Of a stretch of DNA of 64,000 nt, positions 4,278-41,788 are shown one piece after another (the first letter of the stretch is position 1; the number at the start of each line of letters is the position of its first letter). The notes below the pieces were generated by a model, which was given only the letters and a program-made list of their open reading frames with translations, ran no database searches and was not told the DNA's origin. Position numbers and translations under genes: made by a program. The DNA is taken from contig JACZXB010000009.1 of the NCBI GenBank assembly GCA_022571845.1, forward strand, positions 62,001 through 126,000. The letters are read 5' to 3'. This DNA comes from Candidatus Zixiibacteriota bacterium (GTDB lineage: Bacteria > Zixibacteria > MSB-5A5 > GN15 > FEB-12).

Positions 4278-7200
4278 TTAGTATTGACCTAAAATTTCAA
4301 TTTCAGTAAATATGGCCATCTTGCCGATTTTCTGACCAAAACCAGGAGCATCCACAACGTAAATATAAATGCCTGATGCAACCGGCACATTAAAATCGTT
4401 GGCAATGTTCCACGCTATTTCTGACGTCAAGTCATCTTTCTCTAATGAGGTTATGAAGTCACCTGCCAAATTGTATATTGAAATAGTGCATTTCTCAGGT
4501 AGATTTCTGAACTTCAATACTCGATTAATCTTACTCGCATCATATCCTCCAAAAAGGTAATATGGATTCGGTGCGACATTGATGTCGGCTAAGAAATCTT
4601 CTCCAGAAGTAGAAACCGATGGCGCCGGAGCAGAAAATGTAAATACGTCGGTTGGTGTGTTGATGTGGTTTGAAAGAATCAAGAATTCGTCTTCTCCTGT
4701 ACCTCCAGGAGAAAACGGCACTACACCCCTTCTGTTAACCGTTAACCACCAAAGAATAGGCATTGAATCACCGATTGCGTCGCCCTGATAGGCCGCATTA
4801 GGAGTAGTCGAATAATCTTCGAGGAAAATCCAGAGCCACTCTCTGGGTCCGCTACCGGCAGTGTTGTCGTAATTACCAAACGAACCCGGGAACCACTTTC
4901 CATCAACTCTACCATCGACCTGATTGTTTTCCAAGTATCCAACTGCCAACCTCTGGGGAGGATTGACGTCGACATTCCAAGCTGATAAAGGTACACTCTG
5001 TGCAAAGTCCTGATAACGATAACCTCCAAGTGTCACGTCAATCATAAATGGCACGAATCCAGGTTGTGCGGGTGGACTCGTAAAGGCACGGCCATACCTA
5101 TATGCATACGAAACATTAACGTCATTTGGGTCAAACGCAAAGCTGCCGAGCGTATCAGAACCATCAAGAGTGTCTACTTGAGCTAATATAAGTAAGACAC
5201 TAACGTGCGAGCTTGGCGGCATTGGTGTATAAGATCCGAAAACATCGCCAGGTCCGCCCCAGCCTATGGCTCCATTGAAGCCTTCCCAGCCAAATCCGTC
5301 TGCATTGGCCCAGGTAAAGCGTCTTGTTCCATTGGGTATGTCCCAGTCTCTCATTCCTGGTACTGGGGGACCAGTGACCTTGAGCAGAAATCCATCGACG
5401 ATCTCATAATCATTATCTCCCGTCTGATTAAACTGCTTTACAACGAGCATCGTACTTTGTGTCACGTTTTCGAGATTCCAATAGACTGCATTTGTAAAAG
5501 TTGATTCTGGTCCCATGCCAGTATCTACCACTGTCACTAATACAGTATCGAAGAAAGTCACCATGTAAGAGTCCCCGGTTAAAGCCTCCGGGTCAACAAT
5601 GAATGGAATTACGGTACCATCCGATATTCCGGATACATGGGTAACGGCAAGTGTATCATTAAATACGTTACCTAATTCAATACCCGCAACCGGACGTTGA
5701 GGAGTTGCCGAAACGATAGTCGCTGATGTCAGCGTTTTTGGTGTTGCCACCGGATCACTGTTATATGAATAAGCCTCTACCTTAAAGAAATACTCAGTGG
5801 AATTGTTCAAAGGTCCAGCATTTATAATATCGTTACTTATTCCTATGAATCTCGTTACCCCATTGTCCGATCCGAATTTAATAGCACGTTGTTCGATAAC
5901 GCCGGTAAGTGGATCCAGTACTTCGTCGATAATAATGGCTACGCCATCGACGATGTCGAAATTAGCAATGCGAGTCCATGGATCGGTTGCAGCTGCTGAT
6001 ATTCCCTGAAAAACGGAATAACCCTGAAAAGGGTAATCACCCGGGCTAACTTCAGAAGTTTTTATCCATTCAAGCACAACTCTTCCGTCAAGCTGATGAA
6101 CTTCAACTGCTGGCGCTGCGGGTGGTTGCAATAGTTGGAAGTTGTTGTCATAGGCTTGCTGTGCGAACTTATCATTAAATTTCAAAACTGAGATAGATGA
6201 CAGTCTGTCTCCGCCTTGTCCCACTATTACAGCCGCCAGAATCTCGGTGCTGTCACCGGGAGCAAAATTAAAAGGACCAGTCGTAAGCATGTATCTTCTA
6301 TCTGAGGAGGCAAAATCAAGGTCGCCTACGCCAGTTGTCGGGTCACCGGGGCCGTAAAACTTGGTACCATTGGCGAGCGGTGCTCCATTCAGAGAAGCAT
6401 CCAGGCCGTTCATATACTGGTAGGTCCAGGTCAAGTTTTGCGGGTCAGTACCATTGATGTATTTGTTAAACGAAGTCATTCCCATATTCAGGTAGCCGAC
6501 AAAAGTAGTGTCCCACATCCTGGCAGTGTCTGCGTTATCACCTGTAAAAATCAGGGGACCCTGGAAGAAGTCAAATCCGACTGCCGGGGGATCACTGCCA
6601 TAATCGCTGTCGTTTCCTTCATTATAGCAATAACCAAGTGATAGTACTGTATCAGATCCAACAAGGTCATCACCGGCGTTACCCAAGTCAGGATCAGCCC
6701 AAAGCGAGACAAACATATCAGCTAGAGTAAGTGTACCCTTATTGTAAATCTGATATTTTACAAAAACTATGTTTGCCAGGGCATCAGTTCGATCAAATGC
6801 GAAAGTAGTCTGGCGAATTTCCAATCCCATACCAATCGCACTTGAAGCATCGTTAGTGTGCGGCGCCGGATTGGCGTCATTAAAGACAGACCAGAGCATC
6901 TGGTCACCCAGCATTGCGGGATTTCCATTAGAATCCACCGGAGCGCCGTCAGCTACCGGCCATTCTGTGTAATCCTGATTTGGATTACTTGCCAGACTGT
7001 CGGCATGCAGCTTGTAAACTCTATCCGCTGGATCCGTATCAGAGCCGGGATCGAAAGTGTTGCCGATCATCGGGCCGGGATACCAATCGTCGGCGTATTC
7101 TGCAATAGTTACCAGAGTATCGCCAGTAGCAACATCTACTGCTCCCACCCAGATCCCCGCTGCAAATATCACCGAAGTATTATTCGATTGATCCGCTATG

Positions 7201-7439
7201 TCTTCCAAGCTCGTGAACGGGAAATAAAGCCCGTCGTTTTTGCCTAACAGGCCACCCTGATCGTATGCGAAAGAGCCCTTGTTGGTTACAAACATCAAGA
7301 TCTGGTTCACGTCAATCCAGGTGCCGGTGTCTCTAATAAGAGACTCCTTCTGACTGAGCTTGCCGCCCAGTGGCGCCAGCGCAAAAGCCGACACCGCTAA
7401 GGCAAGCAAACTCAATACTATAATTGCTTTTTGTTTCAT
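4278..7439 (-). CDS. Large secreted protein with T9SS-like C-terminal sorting tail (cassette A)
   Basis: A 1053-residue protein with an N-terminal signal peptide (MKQKAIIVLSLLALAVSAFA). The ATG at 7439 is preferred because the SD GAGGA lies 8 bases upstream; upstream in-frame ATGs at 7445 and 7454 sit too close to or inside that SD. The long N-terminal half has repeated Asp/Gly-rich beta segments (WVGAVDVATGDTLV, FVKYQIYNKGTL) with no enzyme motif I recognise. A fibronectin III-like segment starts near residue 440. From about 950 there is a tail (VAPNPYYLFGG, FRNLPEKCTISIYNLAG, VASGIYIY, GKMAIF) that resembles FlgD-Ig/Por-secretion tails. It lies between the receptor and the PorV gene, 24 bases after the receptor stop, so it is the likely cargo of the adjacent PorV. 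The substrate is unknown. Confidence 0.8.
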   Translation of the reverse strand: MKQKAIIVLSLLALAVSAFALAPLGGKLSQKESLIRDTGTWIDVNQILMFVTNKGSFAYDQGGLLGKNDGLYFPFTSLEDIADQSNNTSVIFAAGIWVGAVDVATGDTLVTIAEYADDWYPGPMIGNTFDPGSDTDPADRVYKLHADSLASNPNQDYTEWPVADGAPVDSNGNPAMLGDQMLWSVFNDANPAPHTNDASSAIGMGLEIRQTTFAFDRTDALANIVFVKYQIYNKGTLTLADMFVSLWADPDLGNAGDDLVGSDTVLSLGYCYNEGNDSDYGSDPPAVGFDFFQGPLIFTGDNADTARMWDTTFVGYLNMGMTSFNKYINGTDPQNLTWTYQYMNGLDASLNGAPLANGTKFYGPGDPTTGVGDLDFASSDRRYMLTTGPFNFAPGDSTEILAAVIVGQGGDRLSSISVLKFNDKFAQQAYDNNFQLLQPPAAPAVEVHQLDGRVVLEWIKTSEVSPGDYPFQGYSVFQGISAAATDPWTRIANFDIVDGVAIIIDEVLDPLTGVIEQRAIKFGSDNGVTRFIGISNDIINAGPLNNSTEYFFKVEAYSYNSDPVATPKTLTSATIVSATPQRPVAGIELGNVFNDTLAVTHVSGISDGTVIPFIVDPEALTGDSYMVTFFDTVLVTVVDTGMGPESTFTNAVYWNLENVTQSTMLVVKQFNQTGDNDYEIVDGFLLKVTGPPVPGMRDWDIPNGTRRFTWANADGFGWEGFNGAIGWGGPGDVFGSYTPMPPSSHVSVLLILAQVDTLDGSDTLGSFAFDPNDVNVSYAYRYGRAFTSPPAQPGFVPFMIDVTLGGYRYQDFAQSVPLSAWNVDVNPPQRLAVGYLENNQVDGRVDGKWFPGSFGNYDNTAGSGPREWLWIFLEDYSTTPNAAYQGDAIGDSMPILWWLTVNRRGVVPFSPGGTGEDEFLILSNHINTPTDVFTFSAPAPSVSTSGEDFLADINVAPNPYYLFGGYDASKINRVLKFRNLPEKCTISIYNLAGDFITSLEKDDLTSEIAWNIANDFNVPVASGIYIYVVDAPGFGQKIGKMAIFTEIEILGQY

Positions 7440-7463
7440 TTTCATTTTCCTCATCGTTTTATC

Positions 7464-10430
7464 TTAAAATGATGCTCTTAATCCAAAGTATATCTGCCGC
7501 GGATTGGCATAGTTTAGAGGGTGATTCTGAGCAATTTGGTATTTCTCTTCACCCGTTAAGCCGGTGGCATCGTCAACGTCACTGGTATTATTTACGAAAG
7601 TCTGACCTTCGGGAGTTTCCAGCCAGCCGGTCGAATTGGGTCGGCCGCTGCCTTCCCAAACCTGAACGACATTGTCTCTGTCAAGGAGATTCTTTATCCA
7701 TAAATACGGAGCAATCTTGAAGTTGCCCACGTTAAATGATTTCTCGGCTTTCAAGTCTATCGATAATGTCCAGGGTCCTGTCTCAGAATTTCGCGTATCC
7801 AAAGCTATTGGAGCAAAAGCACCAAGAGTTGCTTCGTTCAATATCTGGACGGGGGTATAAGGAAGACCACTGGATGCTATCAGCAGCACGTTGACGCCGA
7901 AGTTTTCGAGCGGATAGATATCGCCGAAACGGGGCCCTTCCTGTGCGCTGTATCTGAGGTCAAAGTTTCCGATAAACTTGTGAGTCTGGTCAAACGCCAG
8001 CGGGGCAGTCTGTCTGGGAGCATTGGCATTTACCCAGGCAACGTTACCCTGTGAATTTGAATAAGAACCGGTACCTGTAGCAAACGACAAGGTGTACTTA
8101 AAGTCCAAGGCTATCTGGCTGGTTCTTCTGGTAGTGAGATGGAATTCAAGTCCCTTAATTGTGCCATAGTCCGAATTGCGATAAGTGGCAAATGAAGTGG
8201 GTTGCGACGGCTGATTAAAGACCTGAATGAGATTGGTAATATCTTTGTAGAAAATGTTTACGTCGATGGAAGTGTTGTCCCCCATCTGACGGGTTATACC
8301 AATTTCATAAGCGGTTGTTTTCGGCGGCTCCAGATTTGGATTACCGAATGAAACATAGTAACCACCGGTATTAATCTTGAAGTTCAGGAAGTCATAGCCC
8401 ACATACAGATTCTGCAACTCCGGTCGTTGGTAAAACCGGCCGTAGCTCAATCTCATCTGAGTCTTATCAGAAATCGGGAAAGCCACGCCTAAGCGGGGAG
8501 AAAGTCTGGTGAATTTCTCGCTCTCTTCGGTATCACCCAAATCGAGAACTGAGGCAAGGCTGTCAAGGCCTGGATTGCCAGGGAATCCTAATGAATCAGG
8601 ATTTAAAGGCAAGGCCGGGTTACGCAGTCGGAGCGCCTTGTAATCAAAGTAGTCAAATCTCAGGCCGCCAGTAATAATCAAGCCCTCATATTCCAGGCGG
8701 TCCTGCAAGAAGAAACCAATATCAATGGGGTGCTTGGTTTCATTCTGCCAGTCATCATCGTCAGACTCTTCCCCAAAAATGTCGTAGCCATAACGGTTAA
8801 CATCCTGGAAGCCACCGGTGCCGACACCTTTATATACGGATACCGGGAAGAAATGTTGATAAAACCTAAGTGTATGGCGATTGAATTCGAAGCCGCCTTT
8901 GATAGTGTGCTCAGATGTTATTTCGCTGGTAATCTGCCCCTTGAAGCCAACATAGGCCGACTTTCTCCTGAGATAATCATCCCAGACGTGTGCTTCATCT
9001 CCATCAGCAACAAATGTTCTGTCAAGTCCATCAGGAGTGCCAAGAGAGTCGCCAGCAATAGTTACGTACGTGACAGGCGTAATAATACGGTCACCAGTAA
9101 CAGAATCAATCTCGATATTATCAAACGACCTGAAAAGGTTTTCAACATCGTTTCTGGGATTGCCACCGGGACGCCCATAGGCCCAGATGTCTTCCCGATA
9201 AATCCCATCACCCCGGAATCTCTCTGTTACAAAATATGTTCCGCTGAAAGTCCAGAAAGTGCTGGCGCTCATGGTGTGCGTCAGCTTGGCATTAAAGCTG
9301 GTATTTTTGTCTTTATAGTAGGGCATATGCTCGGCATTAAAGAGGTATGAATGGGTATATCCACGCCATTCATCATTTGAGCCGGTTCCGGAAAGCTGTA
9401 ACTGCAAGTTGTCAGTAAACTGATAGTCAATCTTTCCCTGATACGCCCAGCCGTCAAGGCTGTTATTAGGAAGTCTGACAGAAGCGGAAGGCAGCACATC
9501 ATCAGTAATTGCTGAGGGCATTCTGTCTCCGTGGTAGCGACGCTCAACCGAGCCGAAGAAAAAGCCGTCTTCGACTCCTGGAATCGGTCCGCTCAGGTCG
9601 AGCGAATACCAGTTCTGGTCATAGGTGTGCTTGAAGCTGTCACCCCAATTATCGGTTACAACTTCAGCGTTACCGTGGTATTCATTTCCGCCGGACATGG
9701 TCGTCACATTTACAATACCCGACGCTACGTGCCCGTATTCGGCCGGGAATCCGCCGGAAGTAATTGATATTTCCTTGATAGCGTTGTTACTGATATTAGT
9801 AGTCGATGTCCCAGAAAGCGGGTCCTGCTGTGAAAAGCCATCTACATAATAGGCAACTTCGCTGGGTCGACCGCCCCTGATATTTAATTCAGGACTGTTG
9901 CTGGCTTCACGCGCTCCTCTAAGACCTCTTGGTCCGAGGTTTGGTGTGACCTTTACTACACCTGTCTGAATTCCAACAACGTCTGCAAAACCTCGTGTCG
10001 GTAATGCCAAAAGCTCATCGCGTCTGACAATACTTATCGAGGCTACTTTGTCTCTAATAACCAGCGGCGTTTCTGCCGTGACGCGAATCACATCACCCAG
10101 TTCTTCAGTCGTCGGGGCGACTGTGTGATCCTGAAACGAGGCCAGGTCAACAGAGACCAATACGTTACTAACTTCGAGTGTCGTAAAACCGACTGAACTT
10201 ACACGTATTGTATAAGTGCCAACCGGAACGTTCAAAATGGTATACTTACCATTTGCGTCAGTTACCCCGCCAAGCGATGTGCCTACGACAGACACGTTGG
10301 CGCCGGGTACTGCATCGCCTGTTTCAGAGCTTGTTATGACACCCGTGATGCGGCCTGATACCGCTGAGAACACAGTGCCTGAAACAAGGCAGATAAAAAC
10401 TGTGAGTACTACGAGTAATTTAGATTTCAT
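7464..10430 (-). CDS. TonB-dependent receptor with carboxypeptidase-regulatory-like domain (cassette A)
   Basis: A 988-residue outer-membrane receptor. The ATG at 10430 (MKSKLLVV) is chosen because an AGGAGG SD precedes it and a signal peptide follows directly; the longer frame from 10463 would include the SD. Order: signal peptide (1-22), CarboxypepD_reg-like domain (about 24-105, GRITGVITSSETGDAVPGA and PVGTYTIRVSSVGF), plug (about 115-250, LNIRGGRPSEVAYYVDGF and ITSGGFPAEYG), then a 22-strand-type barrel with typical repeats (RLSPRLGVAFPISDKTQMRL, NPNLEPPKTTAYEIG) ending GLRASF with terminal Phe. The family imports or binds ligands with TonB energy; no tonB or exbBD gene is visible here. 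First gene of cassette A. Confidence 0.9.
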   Translation of the reverse strand: MKSKLLVVLTVFICLVSGTVFSAVSGRITGVITSSETGDAVPGANVSVVGTSLGGVTDANGKYTILNVPVGTYTIRVSSVGFTTLEVSNVLVSVDLASFQDHTVAPTTEELGDVIRVTAETPLVIRDKVASISIVRRDELLALPTRGFADVVGIQTGVVKVTPNLGPRGLRGAREASNSPELNIRGGRPSEVAYYVDGFSQQDPLSGTSTTNISNNAIKEISITSGGFPAEYGHVASGIVNVTTMSGGNEYHGNAEVVTDNWGDSFKHTYDQNWYSLDLSGPIPGVEDGFFFGSVERRYHGDRMPSAITDDVLPSASVRLPNNSLDGWAYQGKIDYQFTDNLQLQLSGTGSNDEWRGYTHSYLFNAEHMPYYKDKNTSFNAKLTHTMSASTFWTFSGTYFVTERFRGDGIYREDIWAYGRPGGNPRNDVENLFRSFDNIEIDSVTGDRIITPVTYVTIAGDSLGTPDGLDRTFVADGDEAHVWDDYLRRKSAYVGFKGQITSEITSEHTIKGGFEFNRHTLRFYQHFFPVSVYKGVGTGGFQDVNRYGYDIFGEESDDDDWQNETKHPIDIGFFLQDRLEYEGLIITGGLRFDYFDYKALRLRNPALPLNPDSLGFPGNPGLDSLASVLDLGDTEESEKFTRLSPRLGVAFPISDKTQMRLSYGRFYQRPELQNLYVGYDFLNFKINTGGYYVSFGNPNLEPPKTTAYEIGITRQMGDNTSIDVNIFYKDITNLIQVFNQPSQPTSFATYRNSDYGTIKGLEFHLTTRRTSQIALDFKYTLSFATGTGSYSNSQGNVAWVNANAPRQTAPLAFDQTHKFIGNFDLRYSAQEGPRFGDIYPLENFGVNVLLIASSGLPYTPVQILNEATLGAFAPIALDTRNSETGPWTLSIDLKAEKSFNVGNFKIAPYLWIKNLLDRDNVVQVWEGSGRPNSTGWLETPEGQTFVNNTSDVDDATGLTGEEKYQIAQNHPLNYANPRQIYFGLRASF

Positions 10431-10602
10431 TACTCCTCCTTGTAATGTTGTATGATTTCGCAACTGTTTTGTTTATCATATTTTCAATCAGGAAAGCTAT
10501 TCTAATTCTATCAAATAGGCAAGGCCATTCTCCGTCATCGGCATTGACCGCAAAACTTGCTCAAAAAGTCCCAAAAAGGCCGAAAACAGTCAACAAAAAC
10601 AG

Positions 10603-22014: not shown

Positions 22015-22583
22015 ACAACTCAGAAATTTTGAAGATATTTGAAGATTCCGGGGCGCTTTTGAGCGGGCATTTCAAGCTGACCTCGGGCAGACACTCCGAC
22101 ATCTACTATGAAAAATTCACGCTACTCAAAAACCCCAAGGTTTGCACAAAAATCTGCAAAATGATAGCAGATGAGTTTAGTGACAAGAATATCCAGACAA
22201 TAGTAGGACCTACCTTGGGAGGAGTGATAATAGCCTACGAAGTTGCCCGGTATCTGGGAATTGAAGCAGTCTATTCTGAACCGGGGGAGGCCGGCAGAAC
22301 TCTCAAACGTGGCTTTGAAATAAGCCCCGATGAAAAAGTTTTGATTGTAGATGATATTTTAACTACCGGCCGGTCGATTAAAGAAATGATAGAACTTTGT
22401 AAATCCAGAAATGTCGATATTTGCGGAATAGGATTGATACTGGACCGCTCGGGCGGGCAAATAAAATTTGATTATCCGCAGTATTCAGTGGGTTCAATTG
22501 ATGCAGTTTCTTGGTCGCCGGAAGAATGTCCGATGTGCAAAAAAGATGAGCCTCTCACTCAAAGAGGCAGCAGAGTTCATTAA
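22011..22583 (+). CDS. pyrE: Orotate phosphoribosyltransferase
   Basis: 190 residues. It joins orotate and PRPP to give orotidine 5'-phosphate in pyrimidine synthesis. Motifs: FKLTSGRHSDIYYEKF at the N terminus, IVGPTLGGVIIAYEVA, and the PRPP loop VLIVDDILTTGRSI. The C-terminal ECPMCKKDEPLTQRGSR is typical of this subtype. The start overlaps acpS by 4 bases. The gene converges with the response-regulator gene, overlapping it by 4 bases. Confidence 0.95.
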   Translation: MNNSEILKIFEDSGALLSGHFKLTSGRHSDIYYEKFTLLKNPKVCTKICKMIADEFSDKNIQTIVGPTLGGVIIAYEVARYLGIEAVYSEPGEAGRTLKRGFEISPDEKVLIVDDILTTGRSIKEMIELCKSRNVDICGIGLILDRSGGQIKFDYPQYSVGSIDAVSWSPEECPMCKKDEPLTQRGSRVH

Positions 22584-22963
22584 GATGCTTTAGCGTCGCT
22601 CAGGCAGTCAGCTACTGTCTGCATCAGTTCTTTAATGCTGAAAGGTTTAGACAAAAAAGCGCTGGCGCCATGGTTGGCTGATTTGCTGACAGAGTATAAA
22701 CTCGAGTAGCCTGTAATAACAATGACTTTGGCCGTGGGGTCTGATTGTACGGCAAATTTAACAACTTCGTCACCGGAAACACGCGGCATTTTAAGGTCTG
22801 TTATGACCAGGTCATAACTTTGCTCTTTTAGCTTGTCAATAGCCTCGTCACCGTCGCTAGCGGTGCTGACTTCAAAATCATCATTTAAGACTTCGAACAA
22901 AAAGTCTCTGATTATTTCTTCGTCATCTACTACCAGAACGGTTTTCTTATCCATTTTGCTCAT
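22580..22963 (-). CDS. Response regulator, receiver domain only
   Basis: 127 residues with a complete receiver: acidic pair VVDDEE (13-14), phosphoacceptor Asp56 (LVITDLKMP), Thr84 (VITGYSS) and Lys106 (LSKPFS). There is no output domain, so it probably works in a phosphorelay or by protein contact rather than by binding DNA. It follows the histidine kinase gene by 12 bases and is its likely partner. An alternative start lies 9 bases downstream. Confidence 0.9.
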   Translation of the reverse strand: MSKMDKKTVLVVDDEEIIRDFLFEVLNDDFEVSTASDGDEAIDKLKEQSYDLVITDLKMPRVSGDEVVKFAVQSDPTAKVIVITGYSSLYSVSKSANHGASAFLSKPFSIKELMQTVADCLSDAKAS

Positions 22964-22975
22964 TTTCCAATTCGT

Positions 22976-24655
22976 TCAGCCAGGAAAGTTAGGGGCTTTC
23001 TGCTTATTCAGGTTATCGGCTTCCAGAGTCGGTTTCTGAAGAGGTAGAACTATGATGAAGGTAGTTCCTTTTTCTTCATTAGAAGTCACCTTTATTTCTC
23101 CTCCGTGATTTCTTATTATACCGTAACTTACGGATAATCCCAGGCCGGTTCCTTTGCCCAGTTCTTTAGTAGTAAAGAAGGGCTCGAATATTCTCTTCAT
23201 ATTCTCTGAAGGGATTCCGCAGCCGTTATCAATAAACATAATTTCAATAGCTCCACCAAAATCGCCAAGAGCAGGGCTTGACTGAGTTTTTATCTTTATG
23301 CAGTTGCCGGATTCGGATGCATGCATTGCATTTATTATCAGATTCGTAAATACCTGCTGCAGCTGTCCGGCATTTCCGTTAATTTCGGGGATACTTTCAT
23401 TTAATTCAAGTTTTAGTTCAATCTGGTGCATATTGAGCTGGTGCTCGATAAACGTCACAGTATCTTTGATAATATGATTAATGCTGATTCGTTCAAATTC
23501 TATTTTCTCGGGCAATCTTGAGAATTTCAACAAATTCTGTACTATATTCTTACAGCGACGCGCCTGCTTTTCTATTTCTGACAGATAACGCAGGTAATCT
23601 TGATGTTGTTTTTCATCAATCTCAGTAGCCCCGGTATGGCTCATTTTCTCGAGGGCAATTTGTGCATAACCGAGAATACCGCCCAGAGGATTGTTAAGCT
23701 CGTGGGCCACTCCTGCCGCCAGCTGACCTATGGCACCCATTTTTTCGGATTGCAGTAACTGTGCCTGAGCTTCTTCCAGTTCTATAGTCCTTTGTACAAT
23801 CTTGTGTTCAAGATTTCTGTTATATTCTTCAATTTCGTTTCGGGACTGTCTCAATGAGTCCACCATCTTGTTAAATGTATCAGCCAGATGTCCTATTTCA
23901 TCACCCGAATGAATATCAACGCTCTGTGTCAGATCGCCGCGGCTGATCCGGTCCGTTGCAGTAAGCAATACCCGTATCGGTCTGGTTACAAATCGTACCA
24001 GAAAGGCGATAGTCAATATACCAAAAAGCAGGATAGCCGCTGTTACCAACAAGGCCGCCTTTTGAGCTTCTGTTATGGCCTTATTAACGTTGGCTAATGA
24101 TAGTACCAGTTTTATTGATCCAACTTTTTCGATAACTAGATCATCCCTGTTTGCTTTGTCATAGCCAGCGGTCATACCCAGCAGCTCTCTGTCCAGTGAT
24201 TCTCTCCGGGTTGTAATCGGATAATTGAGAACAATGAATTCATCACCGTTATTTAACCTGACCTGGTAATCATGATGCGCCAAATCATCTGTAAAGGCCG
24301 TCTTTATTCTCTTGCTGTCAGCAATAGCATTATTATTCCATTCACCTGCTTCGGACAGCAGCCTGTTATCAATTGAGTAAATAGCGGCATAGCGCACTAC
24401 ATTAAAGCCGTGCAAGAGCGTAAGCATTTCATCGAGTTCATATTGTGATTCCAGAATTACTCCGGTCTCGGCATTAACAGCCAGCATTCTAATCATTGTT
24501 TCGCCGGCGGTCTCCAGTTCGCGTCTGATTCCGTGTGCTTGTCTGTTGATCATATAGGTACTGGTGACCAAACTGCTAATTAAGAGAATAACAACAATTG
24601 GAAGGAGCACTTTGGTGCGCAGCTTGGCGTTGTAAAACCATTTACGGAGGTTCAT
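22976..24655 (-). CDS. Membrane sensor histidine kinase (HAMP-HisKA-HATPase)
   Basis: 559 residues. Membrane helix about 15-36, a periplasmic sensor region to about 195, a second helix about 200-222, HAMP about 223-275 (RPIRVLLTATDRISRGDL), a coiled coil, then HisKA with phospho-acceptor His318 (AAGVAHELNNPLGGILGY). The ATPase domain follows, with N box (QVFTNLIINAMHA), G1 (DNGCGIP) and G2 (GKGTGLGLSVSYGI). Its ATG overlaps the stop of the upstream binding-protein gene (ATGA). The binding protein therefore probably supplies the signal, inferred from gene order. The cognate receiver follows. Confidence 0.93.
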   Translation of the reverse strand: MNLRKWFYNAKLRTKVLLPIVVILLISSLVTSTYMINRQAHGIRRELETAGETMIRMLAVNAETGVILESQYELDEMLTLLHGFNVVRYAAIYSIDNRLLSEAGEWNNNAIADSKRIKTAFTDDLAHHDYQVRLNNGDEFIVLNYPITTRRESLDRELLGMTAGYDKANRDDLVIEKVGSIKLVLSLANVNKAITEAQKAALLVTAAILLFGILTIAFLVRFVTRPIRVLLTATDRISRGDLTQSVDIHSGDEIGHLADTFNKMVDSLRQSRNEIEEYNRNLEHKIVQRTIELEEAQAQLLQSEKMGAIGQLAAGVAHELNNPLGGILGYAQIALEKMSHTGATEIDEKQHQDYLRYLSEIEKQARRCKNIVQNLLKFSRLPEKIEFERISINHIIKDTVTFIEHQLNMHQIELKLELNESIPEINGNAGQLQQVFTNLIINAMHASESGNCIKIKTQSSPALGDFGGAIEIMFIDNGCGIPSENMKRIFEPFFTTKELGKGTGLGLSVSYGIIRNHGGEIKVTSNEEKGTTFIIVLPLQKPTLEADNLNKQKAPNFPG

Positions 24656-25626
24656 TTGTAAACCTCCCGGGCTACCGCTATAAGCTCAGGCGGAATTTTG
24701 ATTTTGATGTAATTGGCAGTTTTTTGGTTGTAGTGAAAATAGATTACGTCGCTTGAAGTCACTCTGATTTCTGAAGCATCGGCTCCATCTATCAGCTTAT
24801 TTACGATTTCTCCGGCTTGAAATCCTATCGCTTTGTAATCAAAGTCCAGAGCAAACAAGGCACCAGACTCCACCACGTGGCGGGAAAATCCCATGAACGG
24901 AATCATTTTGCGTAAAGTCGTTTTTAAAATGTATCTGGTTGACTGTGGACCAAAAAGTTCCGGATCAGCAACTGACCAAAGACCTTGAGTTATATTTGCC
25001 AGTGAATCGAGCGCTTTGGGGAGTTCCTTAGGTTCCTTGATTAACACCGGCACCAGGGTCATGCCAAGTTCGCGCGCCACGATTTTTGCAGAAGGTATAA
25101 GCGGGGCGGTACTTTCTGTATAGAGGACGCCGATTTTTTCTAACTTAGGTAATATCTGTTTGAAATATGAGAATTGAACATTTAGAGGAATATCCAGTGA
25201 AGCGCCGGTAATATTGTTTCCAGTGCCTGATGAACTGTTAACAAAACCTGAAAGCGCCGGATATTTTACGCTCGAAAATACAATGGGAATTTTCTTAAAG
25301 TTTCTCTTGGCGAACTCAGTCGCCGATGAGCCTACGGTTAGTATGATGTCCGTTTTATTAGCCAGACAACTGTTGACAACCGCAGTATCTTTCAGAATAC
25401 CACGTTTGATAACGTATTTGTCAAACTGTGCTTCGGGGTGTTCCCGTTTGATAATGTTCTTGGCGCCACTTAAAGTCCTGGCCGTAGAAGTAAGGCTGTC
25501 GCTTACAAAAATTGCAATTCTGGTTCGGCTTTTCTGTGGAAAAGCATGTTCCGGAGAAAGGACAGTAAACGCAATTATAGCCCAACTGATTAATAGAAAT
25601 AGTGTCCTGTTCATGCCAAATTTCAT
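24652..25626 (-). CDS. ABC_sub_bind-type periplasmic substrate-binding protein
   Basis: 324 residues, with a signal peptide (about 1-30, SPEHAFPQ) and the two-lobed fold of the ABC_sub_bind/TrpX-like family: TRIAIFVSDSLTSTARTL, DIILTVGSSATEFAKRN, IPIVFSSVKYPALSGFV, NITGASLDIPLNVQFSYF and IGVLYTESTAPLIPSAKIVA. In classical use such proteins feed an importer, but no permease or ATPase gene is here. Instead it is first in an operon with a histidine kinase and a receiver, so it is probably the ligand-sensing arm. An internal ATG at residue 5 is an alternative start. It is divergent from the cassette B receptor. Confidence 0.85.
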   Translation of the reverse strand: MKFGMNRTLFLLISWAIIAFTVLSPEHAFPQKSRTRIAIFVSDSLTSTARTLSGAKNIIKREHPEAQFDKYVIKRGILKDTAVVNSCLANKTDIILTVGSSATEFAKRNFKKIPIVFSSVKYPALSGFVNSSSGTGNNITGASLDIPLNVQFSYFKQILPKLEKIGVLYTESTAPLIPSAKIVARELGMTLVPVLIKEPKELPKALDSLANITQGLWSVADPELFGPQSTRYILKTTLRKMIPFMGFSRHVVESGALFALDFDYKAIGFQAGEIVNKLIDGADASEIRVTSSDVIYFHYNQKTANYIKIKIPPELIAVAREVYK

Positions 25627-25879: not shown

Positions 25880-28606
25880 ATGCCGATAAAAAGATTTATG
25901 ACTAATAGGAATGTCATATATGATAGAGACAAGTTTTTTCAAAAGGTAAAATTCTTGAGTCGTTTGACTAAAATATTACCGCTGCTGATTTCGTTACTAT
26001 TAGTGTTTTTCAGCGCAGCATTAGTCCAGGCGGGAGTTGTCGGAAAAATTTCTGGTCTGGTCGAAGATAGCAAGACCGGAAAACCGATAGTCGGAGCGAC
26101 AGTAAGAATTAACGGAACTTCGCTGGTGACTAAAACCGATGTAGACGGGGAATTTTTCGTTATCAATCTGCCGGTAGGAAAGTACGATATTTCCGTCAGC
26201 AGTGTCGGTTACGAAAGAATAGTTCATAAGAATGTTCTGGTTTTAATAGACCTTACGACACCAGTCAATTTTGAAATCAATCAATCTACTCTTCGGTTGC
26301 AAGAAGAAGTAGTTGTAACGGCAGAAAATCCGGTAATACAAAAAGATTTGACAGCTTCAAAAGTAATTTTTACGGCTGATCATTTAAAACTTCTCCCAAA
26401 TATCATTACAGTGAAATCCGTATTGATCAATTATCCCGGCGTAGTGGTCGATCGTGACAACGACCTGCATATAAGAGGCGGTCGCGCCGGACAAGTAGCC
26501 TATTATTTTGACGGCTTTTCGGTACAGGATCCATTTATATCCCAGTCGGGAATCAAGATTATGCCCAGCTCTTTAGAGCAGCTGTCTTTGACTTCCGGTG
26601 GTTATACGGCGGAGTATGGCGAGGCTCTTTCCGGTGTTGTCAGCGCTATTACTCGTGAGGGCGGCGAGTCTTATCACGGCGGATTTAAAATGTATGAAGG
26701 CCTGACGCATCCTTATAATGTACGAAGTGGAGAATGGGCCGGCCTAAACAGAGTTGGCAATCGTGCTACCAGCTTCAATCTGTCAGGTCCGATTCCGGGC
26801 GCAGGTTTTTCGCGTAACACTTTTTTTGTAGCCGGCGAATATTTGCATGAGCCATCATATTTGCCTCATAATGGTTCGGTCTCTTATACAGGTACGACCA
26901 AATTGTCGCTGCAGCCCAGCCAGAGATTCAAAATCAAAGCGAATTTCACTTTCCATGATGAATCCGGCGAAGAGTATATACACCGCGACGTTAACGGAGT
27001 CTCCTACGACTTCAATCTCGACGGACTGCCCTCGTTTAAAAAGAACTCGTTTCTGGCCGGTATCAGCGGATTATATTCTGTCAGTGAAAGATTGATTATA
27101 ACAAACTCTTTTAACTATTTCATGACCAATTACAAATCAGCTCCGGGAGCTCTGTTTGACTTGTACTGGGATCAGTGGCCAGGCTATACCGAAGGGACCA
27201 TTGATGATGATAATTATCTCGGCAATAGAGATTTTGCCGATGTCCTTCAGGCCACAGGATTTACAGTTGGCAACGACTTTAAACCTACATACAGATGGCG
27301 GGAGTCAATCTACAGCGCCTATAAGTTAAATGTTATCGGTCAAGTCAACAAGACCAATCAGATAAAAGCGGGCTTTGAGTGGAGAAAATACAAGATAGAC
27401 TGGGATTACAAGCTATTTTTTAACGACAATCCTTATGGCGAAAAATATAATAGCAGTCCCAGCTATATCTCCGGTTTTGTGCAGGATAAGATGGAATATA
27501 AAGAATTCATCATAAATCTGGGCCTGCGAGTTGATTATCGTGATGCTGATATTTCTTATAATGTTAACCCCGGCGGCTTTACCCCGGTTTATAAACGAGC
27601 TGACTCCAAAACACGCTGGGCTCCACGTCTTGGAATTTCATTCCCGATATCCTCAAGATCTAAAATGCATTTCAACTACGGACTGTTTTATCAAGAGCCT
27701 AGTTTCAGATATCTTTATACTAATTTGGAAGGGGATGTTTCAACAGGTTATCCGCTATTGGGTAATCCTGATCTTAATCCCGAGCAGACAACTTCATACG
27801 AACTGGGCCTTGACCATTTGATTGACAGAAATTTAAGGCTGAAAGTAGTTACCTATTTCAAAGATATCAACGATCTGGTAACTACACGTTCTTCATTCCA
27901 GGTAGCAGGCTTACCGGTCACTCACTTTGACAATGATGATTATGGTTCTGTAAAAGGCATCGACTTGACTATTGAAAAGTTTCCGGGCGGCGGATATTTG
28001 AGCGGATCTATCTCTTATAGCTATCAGATTGCAACCGGTATCGGCTCTACGGCGCTTGAACCTTACTATACCTATATCACTTCAGTAACTGACACCCTGG
28101 CCCCGGTCTCCGAATATCCATTAGATTTTGACCAGCGCCATACAGTTATAGCGCTTATGTCATTTCGGGCTCCAAGAAACTGGGATGCCAAGTTTCTTGG
28201 TATGCAAATGCCCGGCGCCTGGAATCTTAGCCTTGTCGGAAGTTATGGTTCGGGTCTGCCATACACTTCAACGGATAATCTGGGCGCCAGATTGGGTGAA
28301 CGCAACGAAGCCAGACTGCCTTCGAATTACCGGGTCGACATGAGGTTTAATAAAGACTTCGCACTTGGCGCCTTTAATTCGCGCCGTATGAGTTTCTTTG
28401 TGGAAGTAGACAATCTCTTTAATAAGAGAAATATTCTGGGTGTTTACACCAATACCGGCCGGCCGGATAACGACGGTAATGCCATCGGCGCCGGGTTTAC
28501 TCTGAATGCCAACGAGATAAGCTTTTATGACAGGTTATACGACCATGACCCGCAGAATTTTTCACCGCCGCGGACTATTAGAACCGGTATAGAGTTTAGT
28601 TTTTAA
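25880..28606 (+). CDS. TonB-dependent receptor with carboxypeptidase-regulatory-like domain (cassette B)
   Basis: 908 residues. The signal/anchor segment is LPLLISLLLVFFSAALVQA (about 35-53); the 30 residues before it are charged, so a downstream TTG start is possible. CarboxypepD_reg-like domain about 55-140 (GKISGLVEDSKTGKPIVGA, PVGKYDISVSSVGY), plug about 145-260 (DLHIRGGRAGQVAYYFDGF, LTSGGYTAEYG), then a barrel (RWAPRLGISFPISSRSKMHF, NPDLNPEQTTSYELG) ending GIEFSF with terminal Phe. Paralogue of the cassette A receptor at 7464-10430 and first gene of the second receptor-cargo-PorV set. Outer-membrane uptake or binding; ligand unknown. Confidence 0.9.
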   Translation: MPIKRFMTNRNVIYDRDKFFQKVKFLSRLTKILPLLISLLLVFFSAALVQAGVVGKISGLVEDSKTGKPIVGATVRINGTSLVTKTDVDGEFFVINLPVGKYDISVSSVGYERIVHKNVLVLIDLTTPVNFEINQSTLRLQEEVVVTAENPVIQKDLTASKVIFTADHLKLLPNIITVKSVLINYPGVVVDRDNDLHIRGGRAGQVAYYFDGFSVQDPFISQSGIKIMPSSLEQLSLTSGGYTAEYGEALSGVVSAITREGGESYHGGFKMYEGLTHPYNVRSGEWAGLNRVGNRATSFNLSGPIPGAGFSRNTFFVAGEYLHEPSYLPHNGSVSYTGTTKLSLQPSQRFKIKANFTFHDESGEEYIHRDVNGVSYDFNLDGLPSFKKNSFLAGISGLYSVSERLIITNSFNYFMTNYKSAPGALFDLYWDQWPGYTEGTIDDDNYLGNRDFADVLQATGFTVGNDFKPTYRWRESIYSAYKLNVIGQVNKTNQIKAGFEWRKYKIDWDYKLFFNDNPYGEKYNSSPSYISGFVQDKMEYKEFIINLGLRVDYRDADISYNVNPGGFTPVYKRADSKTRWAPRLGISFPISSRSKMHFNYGLFYQEPSFRYLYTNLEGDVSTGYPLLGNPDLNPEQTTSYELGLDHLIDRNLRLKVVTYFKDINDLVTTRSSFQVAGLPVTHFDNDDYGSVKGIDLTIEKFPGGGYLSGSISYSYQIATGIGSTALEPYYTYITSVTDTLAPVSEYPLDFDQRHTVIALMSFRAPRNWDAKFLGMQMPGAWNLSLVGSYGSGLPYTSTDNLGARLGERNEARLPSNYRVDMRFNKDFALGAFNSRRMSFFVEVDNLFNKRNILGVYTNTGRPDNDGNAIGAGFTLNANEISFYDRLYDHDPQNFSPPRTIRTGIEFSF

Positions 28607-28621
28607 TAGGAGTTAAAGCAG

Positions 28622-31381
28622 ATGCCACAGACAGGAAAAAATATCAGAATTTTTCAAATGAGTATAGTGTTAGTTCTGGCACTTTGTACGGCAGCTTTCT
28701 CCAGGCCGATGTATCAGCCGGGTCCTCCGACTGGAAACAACGGTCCACAGCTGGCTCCCAAGCCCTCGACTGTTGACCAGATTATACATAATGTTGGTAA
28801 CATTGCTACTACCGTTGATAACTGGGGCTATATAGGCGGCTATATGTTTTTTGGCCTGCCTTCAGGGGAATGGCCGCGTGGTTCAGGGCATGACTACCTT
28901 GCCGAAATACGTTATTGGATTGGCGGAGTTAACTCAGCAGGTGACACCATTGTAGCCAACTCTTATGACGATTTTCAGGCACTGGAAACTGATCCAACTG
29001 CTGCTAATCCCTACATGATTCTTCTGTCGACCGACACAAACAGATATATTTTAGAATATGATACCGTTCTTAACGATTTTTTTCGATATAACCCTAATGA
29101 TACAGTCGGTTTTGGCTTTGGCAGTCCTGCTTATGGCTGGAGAACCTGGGATGCCGACTCGAACAGTTTTGTTTACAACAGAGTTTATAATTCCTTGTCA
29201 GCAAGCTTTTTACCGGGTGGGCCAACATCACTTCAGGATTCTCATTACCGTCTGGGTGATGCTGCCAGCGACACTTCGGTACTCGGACTTGAACTGACTC
29301 ACACCATCCTGCAATGGAACTACTGTTATAACGAAGATTTCATGTTTGTTATTTTGGAAATTACGAACACTTCATCAACGACTTACGACAGCCTGGCTTT
29401 CGGGCTTTATATTGACATAGATGTAGGCGGACCGGACGGAAGCGGAGAGAACGGCAGGCTCGAGGATTTGGTAGCCTTTGATTCGCTGGAAAATTTGGCC
29501 TGGATTTATGACAACATAGGTGTCGATCCCGGCTGGGGACCAACTACCCAGACAGGGATTTTGGGAACAAAGCTTCTGGAGACTCCCAATAATATCGGCA
29601 TGACGGCGTTTCGTACCGATGATTGGGCCTTTCTGCCGAATACCGACCCTGGTCGTTATGCCATGATAAACTCTACGCAGTTTGATGTTTCGCTGCCGCC
29701 GACTGATCAGTTCTATATCCAGTGTGTAAACGGTATTTCGATGACACCGGGACAAACTGTACGGGTAGTCTTTGCACTTATTGCCGGAGAGGACGAAGCT
29801 GATTTCAGGGATAATGCTTCGCTGGCACAGTCCTTATATGACGCCAACTTTATCGGGCCACAACCACCCGCTACGCCGCTTATAAGCGCTCGCGCTGGCG
29901 ATGAAAAAATTTATCTGTTTTGGAATGACACAGCCGAAGTCAGCACTGATCCGTTGACAGGAATTCAGGATTTTGTCGGCTATAAACTTTATAGAAGTGA
30001 TAATCAGGGCAAAACCTGGGGAGTTACCAATTATAATACCGGCAACAGCTGTCTTACTCTGGATTATTCTACGCTGTCTACGTACACTGTCTTAAATCCC
30101 GGAGACCCCATACAGCATTCATATATAGATACAGGTCTCTATAACGGTGTCGAATACTGGTACTGTTTAGCGGCTTTTGACGAGGGTGATACTGCCACCG
30201 GCGTTGATCCTCTGCAGTCTGGTTTTGGCCAGCCGGAAATCAATCCAAATGTTATCAGAGTTACGCCGACTACCGACCCGGCTGGGTTCTATGATGCTGT
30301 CAGCACAGTTGAACACAACTATAGCGGAACTGGTTTGCCTTCCGATGGTACTGTCTCGCCTCTTATTTTTGATGCTGACGCTCTTAGTAGTTCCGATTAT
30401 CAGGTTGTATTCGAAGACAGGCCGGAAAAGACTTACTGGCATGTGTTAAACATGACTACCAATGATACAGTCCTGGCTAATCAGACTATAACAACCGGCG
30501 ACCCCGGTTTTTATGAAGTTGCCGAGGGAATCAGAGTTGTAGTCCGTGACGGCGACCATGACCCGCGCGGCTGGGGACAAACTGTGCTGGGTGGTGCCGA
30601 CACCAATTTGGTCATGGGGACGTTTTACGGACCTACCCTGCCGGCATTTACCGGTGATGACAATGACGTTTATGGCAATCAGCATTTCAGTTCAACCTTT
30701 GAATTGAGATATACAGGTGATTCCACCCGGGCCAATTGGGTGTTGGATGGTTTTAATGGTAGCGACAATATATTTTGGGTGCCCTTTGAGGCCTGGAATA
30801 CGACCACCAACGAAAGAATCTCTCTGGCAGTATATGATTTTGACGGAAATGATGTCTGGGATCCTTACGACTTGTTTGCGATTGTAAACTATCCCTATGA
30901 TTCGGTAACATCGGTGACATCATTCGCATTTCCAGAATACTACGGCTGGCTGTTTGCATTTGATGATACATTATATAGTCCTTCTGTTGGCGATGTCTTT
31001 GAAATACAGGGAGCGCCGCTAAATAACTCATCGGATAATTTTACTTTTGCGGCCGACGGTATCAATGCCGGCGCTGCCGCCAACGAATTGGATGATATTA
31101 GAGTAGTTCCGAATCCCTACATAGCCCAGTACTCGGCCTTGGTTGAGATAGCTGAAGGCGAGTCTGTACTTGAGTTTCAGAATCTACCGGAAGAGTGCAC
31201 TATCCGCATTTACAATTTGTCGGGCGGCTTAGTACAAACTCTGGTACATAACGATAACACTGGCTCGGAAAGATGGAACTTGATGTCTACCAGCCGTCAG
31301 CAGATAGCTTCCGGGACTTACATATTCCATGTCGAGTCTCCTTTCGGAGAACATTTGGGCCGGTTTGCCATAATAAAGTAG
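28622..31381 (+). CDS. Large secreted protein with T9SS-like C-terminal sorting tail (cassette B)
   Basis: 919 residues, with AGGAG upstream and a signal peptide (about 1-28, LALCTAAFS). The long beta-rich N-terminal part has a layout like the cassette A cargo (WIGGVNSAGDTIV compared with WVGAVDVATGDTLV). A fibronectin III-like segment starts about residue 416 (SARAGDEKIYLFWND, FVGYKLYRSD). A sorting-like tail starts about 824 (VVPNPYIAQ, FQNLPEECTIRIYNLSG, IASGTYIFHVE). It lies 15 bases after the receptor and 9 bases before the PorV-like gene. No catalytic motif recognised; a surface-exposed binding or structural role is inferred. Confidence 0.8.
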   Translation: MPQTGKNIRIFQMSIVLVLALCTAAFSRPMYQPGPPTGNNGPQLAPKPSTVDQIIHNVGNIATTVDNWGYIGGYMFFGLPSGEWPRGSGHDYLAEIRYWIGGVNSAGDTIVANSYDDFQALETDPTAANPYMILLSTDTNRYILEYDTVLNDFFRYNPNDTVGFGFGSPAYGWRTWDADSNSFVYNRVYNSLSASFLPGGPTSLQDSHYRLGDAASDTSVLGLELTHTILQWNYCYNEDFMFVILEITNTSSTTYDSLAFGLYIDIDVGGPDGSGENGRLEDLVAFDSLENLAWIYDNIGVDPGWGPTTQTGILGTKLLETPNNIGMTAFRTDDWAFLPNTDPGRYAMINSTQFDVSLPPTDQFYIQCVNGISMTPGQTVRVVFALIAGEDEADFRDNASLAQSLYDANFIGPQPPATPLISARAGDEKIYLFWNDTAEVSTDPLTGIQDFVGYKLYRSDNQGKTWGVTNYNTGNSCLTLDYSTLSTYTVLNPGDPIQHSYIDTGLYNGVEYWYCLAAFDEGDTATGVDPLQSGFGQPEINPNVIRVTPTTDPAGFYDAVSTVEHNYSGTGLPSDGTVSPLIFDADALSSSDYQVVFEDRPEKTYWHVLNMTTNDTVLANQTITTGDPGFYEVAEGIRVVVRDGDHDPRGWGQTVLGGADTNLVMGTFYGPTLPAFTGDDNDVYGNQHFSSTFELRYTGDSTRANWVLDGFNGSDNIFWVPFEAWNTTTNERISLAVYDFDGNDVWDPYDLFAIVNYPYDSVTSVTSFAFPEYYGWLFAFDDTLYSPSVGDVFEIQGAPLNNSSDNFTFAADGINAGAAANELDDIRVVPNPYIAQYSALVEIAEGESVLEFQNLPEECTIRIYNLSGGLVQTLVHNDNTGSERWNLMSTSRQQIASGTYIFHVESPFGEHLGRFAIIK

Positions 31382-31390
31382 AGGTTGAAA

Positions 31391-32392
31391 GTGAAACGCC
31401 TGTTTGTCATAATTGTTGTTGTCCAAATGCTGGCCATGAGCGCAAGTGCCAGCGAGTCTCGAATCGGCGCCAGCGGTGCTCAATTCTTAAAGATTGGTGT
31501 TGGCTCCCGTTATCAGGGACTTGGTGAAGCCTCAACGGCAGTAGTAAACGATGTTTACAGTATGTACTGGAATCCGGCCGGGCTCAGCGAGGTCGAGCAA
31601 TCCTCAGTAAGTTTTACGAATGTTGACTGGTTGCTGGATATCAAATTGAACTACTTTGCTTTCGCCAAGAATTTTGAAGATGTCGGAGTATTCGGAATTT
31701 CTGCGACTATGTTGTCGATGGGCGACCAGGAAGTAACTACTTTTGCCGATCAGGGCGGTACCGGTGAAACATTTACAGCTTCATCATATGCTGTTGGAAT
31801 TACTTATGCCAAGCATTTGACTACCAGGTTTTCGTTCGGGGTGACCGCCAAGTATATTGGCGAAAGAATATATAACGAAAGTTCGCAGGGCTTTGCCTTT
31901 GATTTTGGAACATTGCTTTATACCGGGTTCAGGAATCTTCGCCTTGGTATGAGTATCACCAATATGGGGCCGGAGCTCAAATTTACAGGTCCGGACTTAA
32001 CTGTCGGCTATGATCCTCTTGACGGCAGCGGCGCCAATAACGCGGTCGGGGCGGAGCTGAAAACCACACCTTATGACCTTCCCTTAACTTTCCGTTTTGG
32101 GGCGGCCTATGATTTTGATTTTGGTGATAACAGCATTCTTACAGTAGCATCGGAGCTAAAACATCCTAACGACTTTTCGCAGCAGGGCGCCATGGGTTTT
32201 GAGTACGCCTATTCCGAGAAGTTTTTTCTGCGCTCAGGCTATAAGATAAATTATGAAGAACAGGGTTTAACTTTCGGTGGCGGCCTGTCTACTAACATTT
32301 CAAACGATACTAAAGTGATCATAGATTATGCCTGGCAGGAATTTGGCAGGCTGCAGTCTACTCATCGCTTTTCCGTTGGCTTTACTTTTTGA
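31391..32392 (+). CDS. PorV/PorQ-family outer-membrane protein (cassette B)
   Basis: 333 residues from the GTG that has GAGG 6 bases upstream; a TTG 6 bases earlier is the alternative. Signal peptide RLFVIIVVVQMLAMSASA, then the family motif SRIGASGAQFLKIGVGSRY and YSMYWNPAGLSEVE, continuing as beta strands to VGFTF with terminal Phe. Closest relative in the window is the cassette A PorV at 3264-4259, in the same relative position. A strong terminator follows, closing the operon. Confidence 0.85.
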   Translation: MKRLFVIIVVVQMLAMSASASESRIGASGAQFLKIGVGSRYQGLGEASTAVVNDVYSMYWNPAGLSEVEQSSVSFTNVDWLLDIKLNYFAFAKNFEDVGVFGISATMLSMGDQEVTTFADQGGTGETFTASSYAVGITYAKHLTTRFSFGVTAKYIGERIYNESSQGFAFDFGTLLYTGFRNLRLGMSITNMGPELKFTGPDLTVGYDPLDGSGANNAVGAELKTTPYDLPLTFRFGAAYDFDFGDNSILTVASELKHPNDFSQQGAMGFEYAYSEKFFLRSGYKINYEEQGLTFGGGLSTNISNDTKVIIDYAWQEFGRLQSTHRFSVGFTF

Positions 32393-32415: not shown

Positions 32416-32444
32416 AAAAAGGCCGCTAAGCGGCCTTTTTTTTT
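32416..32444 (+). terminator. Rho-independent terminator after cassette B
   Basis: AAGGCCGC / GCGGCCTT hairpin with a 3-base loop followed by nine T. It lies 24 bases after the PorV-like stop and clearly ends the cassette B operon. Confidence 0.9.
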
Positions 32445-41515: not shown

Positions 41516-41788
41516 CCTGTGTGCTAGATGGGGAGTTAGCGGTGCCCTGTAGCCCGGAATCCGCTCTACCGGGGTCGAACTCCCACCCGAGGGCAGTGCT
41601 TGTTTTGGCTGGCCGTTGGTTAAGTGGTGTTGAAGGCTGGGTCCTGTACAACAGAAACCTGTGAACTCCGTCAGGACCGGGAGGTAGCAGCGGTAGACAG
41701 ATTTTTCTGTGTGTTGCAGGAGTGCCCGGCCGGAGCCGGCTGACTTTTCGACCACTGAAACAGCCGTTCAAGGGTGGGTGCACATGGG
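41516..41788 (+). ncRNA. ffs: Signal recognition particle RNA, bacterial large type
   Basis: About 273 bases with the full large-type SRP RNA pattern. The 5' Alu-like region reads GGGGAGTTAGCGGTGCCCTGTA, AATCCGCTCTA and GGTCGAACTCCC. The long helix includes AAGTGGTGTTGA and GGGTCCTGTACAACAG. Domain IV is GTCAGGACC, the GGGA (GNRA) tetraloop, then GGTAGCAGC, which binds Ffh. The ends pair: CCTGTGTGC (41516-41524) with GCACATGGG (41780-41788). The exact ends are estimated from that pairing. It is followed after 45 bases by the KAP NTPase gene. Confidence 0.9.

Follow-up and report, generated by a model that had tools for sequence, protein, structure and literature searches.

A conserved cassette of a TonB-dependent receptor, a type IX-like cargo and a PorV-family barrel as a candidate uptake unit in Candidatus Zixiibacteriota

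The stretch of DNA analysed here (the window, 64,000 nucleotides) comprises positions 62,001 to 126,000 of contig JACZXB010000009.1 from a Candidatus Zixiibacteriota bacterium, whose assembly (2.75 Mb, 98.8% complete, 21 contigs) is referred to as the source genome. It carries two cassettes, A and B, each encoding a TonB-dependent receptor (TBDR), a large cargo protein with a C-terminal domain (CTD) like those of type IX secretion system (T9SS) substrates, and a PorV-family barrel. Copy B, the subject of this study, is probably a TonB uptake unit similar to SusCD, in which a surface protein exported by the T9SS and carried by PorV takes the place of SusD, and the best guess for its ligand is a glycan or oligosaccharide. 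The reading draws support from recovery of the whole triplet with a cargo query, matching gene trees, the cargo fold, sugar genes flanking relatives, a Rhodothermus marinus locus, the presence of SprA, PorU and TonB, and a sensing module found with B only. The parts of copy B are as follows:

25880..28606, + strand: TonB-dependent receptor, 908 amino acids (aa), from Pfam matches over cut-off, an AlphaFold2 model and a structural match to FecA; N-terminal carboxypeptidase-regulatory-like domain at residues ~54-135, plug at ~150-262, then the barrel
28622..31381, + strand: cargo, 919 aa, from a structural model plus below-cut-off CTD matches (TIGR04183 and PorZ models); signal-like helix, super-beta-sandwich at ~45-419, FN3-like part at ~420-545, beta domain at ~560-800, T9SS-like CTD at ~825-919
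31385..32392, + strand: PorV/PorQ-family outer-membrane barrel, 335 aa, TTG start, from NF033709 and similarity to the PorV of 6h3i; proposed dedicated carrier or anchor of the cargo
32416..32440, + strand: intrinsic terminator hairpin followed by a T run, read directly and supported by folding

The coordinates, the gene types, their order and strand, and the sizes of cargo and receptor agree exactly with those given by an earlier, sequence-only reading of the window. The genes are closely spaced, with intergenic gaps of 15 and 3 bp in copy B and 9 and 18 bp in copy A. In both receptors the matches to PF07715 and PF00593 (30.6 and 84.8 bits in receptor B, with cut-offs of 23.9 and 27) are preceded by the carboxypeptidase-regulatory-like domain, and the copy A receptor additionally matches PF25183 (OMP_b-brl_4, 63 bits). 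The SusC/RagA model TIGR04056 scored 65.2 bits in receptor B and 63.3 in receptor A, under its cut-off of 368. As modelled (predicted local distance difference test, pLDDT, 85.5; predicted template modelling score, pTM, 0.85), receptor B is an ordinary TonB transporter, the best structural match being FecA (1kmo; Z 39.1, 3.5 Å, 597 residues). Both PorV barrels pass the PorV_fam model NF033709 (223.4 bits for B and 173 for A, cut-off 90) and fall below the cut-off of 250 for the T9SS PorV equivalog NF033710 (101 and 81.2 bits), and a phmmer search matched PorV B to the PorV of the SprA complex 6h3i (E 4e-12). A terminator had also been placed at the end of the cassette, and the hairpin is confirmed: it has an 11-bp stem at ~32416-32440 with T's at its end, and the 61-nt stretch folds at -16.2 kcal/mol (z -2.31), with 5 of 200 shuffles equally good. 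It is absent from the list produced by a pattern scan for terminators, probably because A-T pairs of the hairpin consume the T run.

The structural model of cargo B (pLDDT 83.4) opens with a hydrophobic helix at residues 3-26. Residues 49-419 match dextran dextrinase (9ju0; Z 20.3, 3.0 Å, 249 residues, 11% identity), and the N-terminal domain of this predicted model resembles a domain of GH15-, GH94- and GH116-type enzymes (Z 16-20), the super-beta-sandwich fold. In the model this domain leads into the FN3-like and beta parts and the CTD, with no catalytic helical barrel behind it, and a fold in common is no proof of sugar binding. The C-terminus of the model is beta-rich, with PorZ and PorU among the Foldseek rows at a TM of only ~0.1, and the CTD matches the PorZ model below cut-off. 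A sequence search gave no match for cargo or receptor among solved structures, and SusD-fold proteins are not among the matches listed for the cargo B model, a listing that does not itself test absence. Cargo-like proteins also occur outside triplets. At L048:7982-13511 (G000 C1, ~16-21 kb) they lie without PorV or receptor, one ending in a dockerin type I domain with no T9SS tail and the other split into two frames, and at L049:5645-13619 two M16 peptidase genes precede a tandem run of three cargo-like CTD proteins, PorV being absent nearby.

Searches with cargos A and B found matches in 59 of 60 genomes, the source genome included, and the closest named relatives are Candidatus Zixiibacteriota bacteria with at most 91-94% identity in the best cargo segment. 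Among 110 genomes of the phylum, cargo B was present in 76 (E 1e-100), with a single match in 73 and two partial matches in three; cargo A or its N-terminal part was present in 68, a count that takes in proteins sharing only the first 430 residues. In ten genomes examined more closely, the B triplet occurs once in each and the A triplet once in five. When the cargo alone served as query, a TBDR adjoined it in 20/20 class B and 18/18 class A loci with room on the contig, and PorV in 19/20 and 19/19, respectively. Of the 21 class B loci fetched in this first sample 20 were counted, L095 having been lost to the simple script that called ORFs (open reading frames) in fetched loci, which preferred antisense frames there; its genome (G009) nonetheless shows plug and PorV at triplet distance. 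L093 was scored as the PorV miss, and its PorV seems to sit on L146. A scan of named genomes gave similar counts for class B loci of Zixibacteria with room (TBDR 50/51, PorV 51/52); the two samples overlap in genomes and are kept separate. Eighteen cargo loci from other phyla, in records labelled Calditrichaceae, Ignavibacteriales, Neomarinimicrobiota, Rhodothermales, Balneola and others, have an adjacent TBDR in 9 of the 11 with room and PorV in 17 of 18, the misses being L185 (receptor present, with another ORF intervening), L192 and L196. Gene order is kept in triplet neighbourhoods, and each gene scores best against its own class.

Trees of receptor, cargo and PorV were built from the 57 triplets in which each gene was complete, with the third sample reduced beforehand to 10 class B loci and L184-L204. 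In every tree classes A (18 triplets), B (28), C (2) and D (9) each form a split, with support of 0.93-1.0 for A, B and C, and of 0.94, 0.97 and 0.73 for D, the class from other phyla. As each class is a clade in all three gene trees, whole cassettes were duplicated long ago, and judged by sequence copy B is an ancient orthologous cassette, usually single-copy. The sister genome G001 likewise has an A and B pair on one contig. Branching among classes differs between genes: class C (L189 and L195, triplets of other Zixibacteria) groups with A by its cargo and with B by its receptor and PorV, a possible sign of partner exchange. All 11 class C and D cargos tested end in the same CTD.

Copy A lies on the opposite strand, 15,416 bp from copy B, in line with the earlier estimate of about 15 kb:

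7464..10463, - strand: TonB-dependent receptor, 999 aa; 28% identity to B, E 8e-91
4278..7454, - strand: cargo, 1058 aa; 25% identity to B, E 1e-35
3264..4259, - strand: PorV/PorQ-family barrel, 331 aa; NF033709 173 bits, 33-34% identity to B, E 2e-56

As had been proposed, each of the three genes of copy B is thus homologous to its counterpart in A, and the two copies share one domain plan. The cargos are related well beyond the C-terminal tail, since the pairwise alignment covers residues 203-1048 of A and 215-917 of B, and the alignment between the two class profiles extends across 668 columns (E 5.6e-72); homology restricted to the tail is ruled out by both alignments. It had further been suggested that the copies diverged in their ligand-facing parts. 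Divergence is indeed uneven, with identity of 40% in the receptor N-domain, 39% in the plug and 27% in the barrel, and of 21-24% in the cargo body and 42% in its CTD, so that barrel and cargo body have diverged most and the best-matching parts are those expected to face TonB and the exporter. The term ligand-facing is too specific, however, because the barrel loops (26%) diverge no more than the strands (27%), and a concentration of divergence in receptor loops was not seen. Within class B, mean pairwise identity of the cargo is highest in the super-sandwich (62.8%), followed by the FN3-like part (58.6%), the CTD (58.2%) and the beta domain (48.5%), and this conservation of the body suggests a fit with one conserved ligand. 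Proteins of 500-560 aa in many genomes (for example G036:C28, G038:C1:2708809 and G041:C26) match only the first ~430 residues of the class A cargo, a domain that therefore also occurs alone.

Copy B is further set apart by its neighbours, three of which form a divergent binding protein-kinase-receiver group upstream:

24652..25626, - strand: periplasmic binding protein, divergent from B; PF04392 (ABC_sub_bind), 118 bits
22976..24655, - strand: histidine kinase with sCache_4, HAMP, HisKA and HATPase, from profile matches
22580..22963, - strand: single-domain response regulator receiver, last gene of the group; PF00072, 94 bits
32515..34101, + strand: secreted-looking metallopeptidase-like protein with HExxH and a downstream E; weak Peptidase_MA_2 match, E 0.028

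Among class B loci with room in the two overlapping samples, the PF04392 gene was found in 17/18 and 35/38 (always divergent), the histidine kinase in 9/9 and 34/35, and the metallopeptidase-like gene downstream in 18/19 and 35/41; the kinase is followed by the stand-alone receiver, which has homologues in 32 loci, and HExxH is present in 52 of 57 aligned metallopeptidase-like sequences, the window's own among them. Class A loci lack these neighbours (binding protein 0/17, kinase 0/8, HExxH protein 0/16). Outside class B, 30 hand-picked larger ORFs in the flanks were scanned, short-flank loci such as L191, L194, L196, L200 and L204 being left out. Of the nine loci from other phyla that have flanks, five are flanked by sugar genes (L184, L185, L198, L199 and L203), including SBP_bac_1, two ABC permeases and a xylose-isomerase-like gene at L184, a solute-binding protein, two permeases and GH130 at L203, LacI, two GH16, CBM_4_9 and a major facilitator superfamily gene at L199, and GH3 with an FGGY kinase at L198. 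In two triplets, from Bacteroidota and Balneola, a PPIC-type prolyl isomerase directly follows PorV (L198:10921-12381 and L199:11428-13131), a folding helper that may be part of the export route.

The machinery that such a unit would need is encoded in the source genome, where SprA scored 547.5 bits counted with its neighbours in frame (cut-off 200) and PorU 631.6 bits (cut-off 420), and TonB_C is present in 10/10 genomes examined. The SusD_RagB model PF07980, the SusD model searched, found nothing in the ten genomes and was positive in the Bacteroides control. The GldM model TIGR03517, the one model searched for the GldL/GldM motor, was silent in the ten genomes and in the control genomes alike and is therefore uninformative on the motor. 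Each of the ten genomes holds 8-10 PorV-family genes over cut-off, and 3 of the 9 plug-bearing receptors in the source genome adjoin a PorV gene. A third TBDR-PorV cassette is present in 9/10 genomes by coordinates and 10/10 by homology and is ancient. Its products are a TBDR of ~1140 aa, PorV and a protein of 752 aa that matches no Pfam family (L042:6636-13390, L208-L216), and a CTD subtilase lies nearby in 9/10 stretches.

Similar arrangements are known from other systems. SusCD of the Bacteroidota also pairs a TonB receptor bearing an N-terminal carboxypeptidase-regulatory-like domain with a co-encoded large and probably surface-located partner, and relatives of the cassette lie within sugar operons as SusCD does. 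It differs in that the ten genomes lack SusD_RagB, the receptor falls far short of TIGR04056 (65 bits, cut-off 368), and the cassette partner has a T9SS-like CTD and another predicted fold, with a PorV gene added. To our knowledge, BtuB-BtuG of Bacteroides has no PorV partner. It does combine a TonB receptor with a surface capture subunit, and BtuB1-BtuG1 (8blw) matches receptor B with Z 34.4, whereas BtuG is a lipoprotein (8blw). In the T9SS type B pairs SprB-SprF and PG1035-PorP a carrier barrel gene also lies directly downstream of the cargo, and type B cargos use such cognate SprF-type carriers (PMC12618676; PMC9143113); in the cassette, by contrast, the carrier is of the PorV family, the CTD is type A-like and a TonB receptor heads the unit. 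PorV loops bind type A CTDs within the SprA pore (PMC10994853), and because of this binding and the downstream pairing of SprF-type carriers, the PorV gene is most simply the carrier of the preceding cargo.

The best outside support, by analogy, comes from the tonB-hypA-hypB triplet of the R. marinus alginate locus, which has a TonB receptor, a T9SS type A sorting protein and a PorV/PorQ family protein in the same order and lies beside alginate lyases (PMC9530828). The likeness is by annotation only, the triplet being published as gene annotations in the legend of Figure 2, which describes no unit (PMC9530828). In the xylan locus of the same species a TBDR is followed by a CTD protein and hypothetical genes, PorV identity not being stated in the table concerned (PMC6987092, Table 1), and a gene-cluster map of Hmu systems in Porphyromonas and other Bacteroidota names T9SS, PorV/PorQ and S8-peptidase genes in its legend (PMC12106395, Figure 1).

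A mechanism may be sketched from what is established: the presence and homology of the genes, the conservation of their order, their inheritance as a set, the neighbouring genes, the folds predicted for the products, and a genome that encodes SprA and TonB. The cargo would cross the inner membrane via Sec and then pass the type IX translocon by means of its CTD, and the PorV-family barrel encoded alongside would hand it over and perhaps keep it at the surface. There the cargo would act as the capture or lid subunit of the adjacent TonB receptor, as SusD does for SusC, and the receptor would then draw the ligand inward, whilst the divergent binding protein, histidine kinase and receiver would sense the ligand in the periplasm. 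Secretion, the PorV-cargo pairing, capture, import and the link to sensing are all steps that we infer.

Several observations weigh against this uptake reading. The TIGR04183 sorting domain scored 19.1 bits in cargo B and 16.6 in cargo A, both under the cut-off of 23, and was matched at E 0.01 by only 14 of 20 class B cargos (best 8e-5). In the enzymes that the cargo resembles, the super-sandwich domain has mainly a structural role, and neither sequence nor fold pinpoints the ligand. The neighbours of B in Zixibacteria include no glycosidase, and the PF04392 and metallopeptidase-like genes among them hint at peptides or amino acids as well; among relatives, L202 is flanked by M20 peptidase, DcuC and RpiR genes and L186 by an M16 peptidase, and the flanks of L190 and L193 hold nothing telling. 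The mixed grouping of class C may indicate that partners are not strictly locked. The third cassette has no CTD cargo between TBDR and PorV, and PorV may therefore serve the receptor rather than the cargo. Lastly, type A cargos share one PorV (PMC12618676).

Of the alternatives, it is conceivable, though unlikely, that the cargo serves as an adhesin or coat at the cell surface, with the receptor placed in the operon for expression or anchoring and the pair importing nothing. Known SprF-linked T9SS cargos are often adhesins (PMC12618676), and the FN3-like and other beta domains of the cargo model would suit such a role, but the receptor adjoins the cargo in nearly all loci with room and keeps its plug and N-domain, and the sugar importers and glycosidases flanking relatives, together with the R. 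marinus alginate locus, argue for uptake. Also doubtful is a role of the PorV-family barrel as a FadL-like channel for a hydrophobic ligand, working with the TonB receptor and leaving the cargo as an accessory. PorV A does pass the cut-off of the FadL/TodX model PF03349 (33.2 bits, cut-off 29.7), and the TBDR-PorV cassette without intervening CTD cargo is kept in all ten genomes; PorV B, however, remains under that cut-off (17.4 bits), both proteins score far above the PorV_fam cut-off, and PorV lies within a few bases after the cargo in nearly all triplets. We consider it improbable that the TonB receptor acts in export, assisting the passage of the cargo through the outer membrane or its release, as Oar does for PopC. 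The requirement of a TonB-dependent transporter for protein secretion has precedent (PMC6434023), and the PF25183 match of the copy A receptor would fit. The cargo, however, bears a T9SS-like CTD of its own in a genome that encodes SprA and PorU, which leaves no need for another exporter; several CTD proteins in the source genome have no adjacent receptor, and the presence of periplasmic binding proteins and ABC importers next to relatives suggests inward transport. The sequence-only reading had taken the two diverged copies 15.4 kb apart for a cassette family expanding in this organism, an idea that deserves hardly any credence, since A and B are old, separately inherited paralogues forming separate order-wide clades in the three gene trees, B is usually single-copy (once in 10/10 genomes, against 5/10 for A) and the sister genome G001 has both cassettes on one contig, evidence which, given correct class labels, rules out recent expansion.

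Beyond copy B, the evidence is evenly balanced as to whether the cassette represents an unnamed class of TonB uptake machine across the Fibrobacteres-Chlorobi-Bacteroidetes (FCB) group, in which a surface capture subunit, exported through the type IX system and retained by a PorV-family carrier of its own, does the work of SusD where SusD is absent. In the titles, opening lines of abstracts and passages covered by searches of the open-licence literature, TBDR, CTD cargo and PorV are not described as one unit, which does not prove that no description exists. If the proposal is true, PorV-family proteins would be dedicated to individual cargos with type A-like tails, much as SprF is to those of type B, and a single operon would combine secretion with uptake. 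The proposal would explain, in a form open to testing, how FCB bacteria poor in SusD capture large nutrients on the cell surface, and would account for the abundance of PorV-family genes in these genomes. As R. marinus is cultured and has the same published gene order, the idea is testable now.

Two minor observations concern other genes. At L041:8478-11312 (G000 C1, ~476-479 kb), the PorV next to PorU occupies a frame of 944 aa with an insert of ~600 residues, weakly matching LysM, between PorV positions 40 and 42; such a split long PorV (819-946 aa) is present in 10/10 genomes examined, and it would be unusual for the main T9SS carrier to contain an insert that binds the wall. The window also encodes a large bacterial signal recognition particle RNA at 41519-41785 (182 bits).

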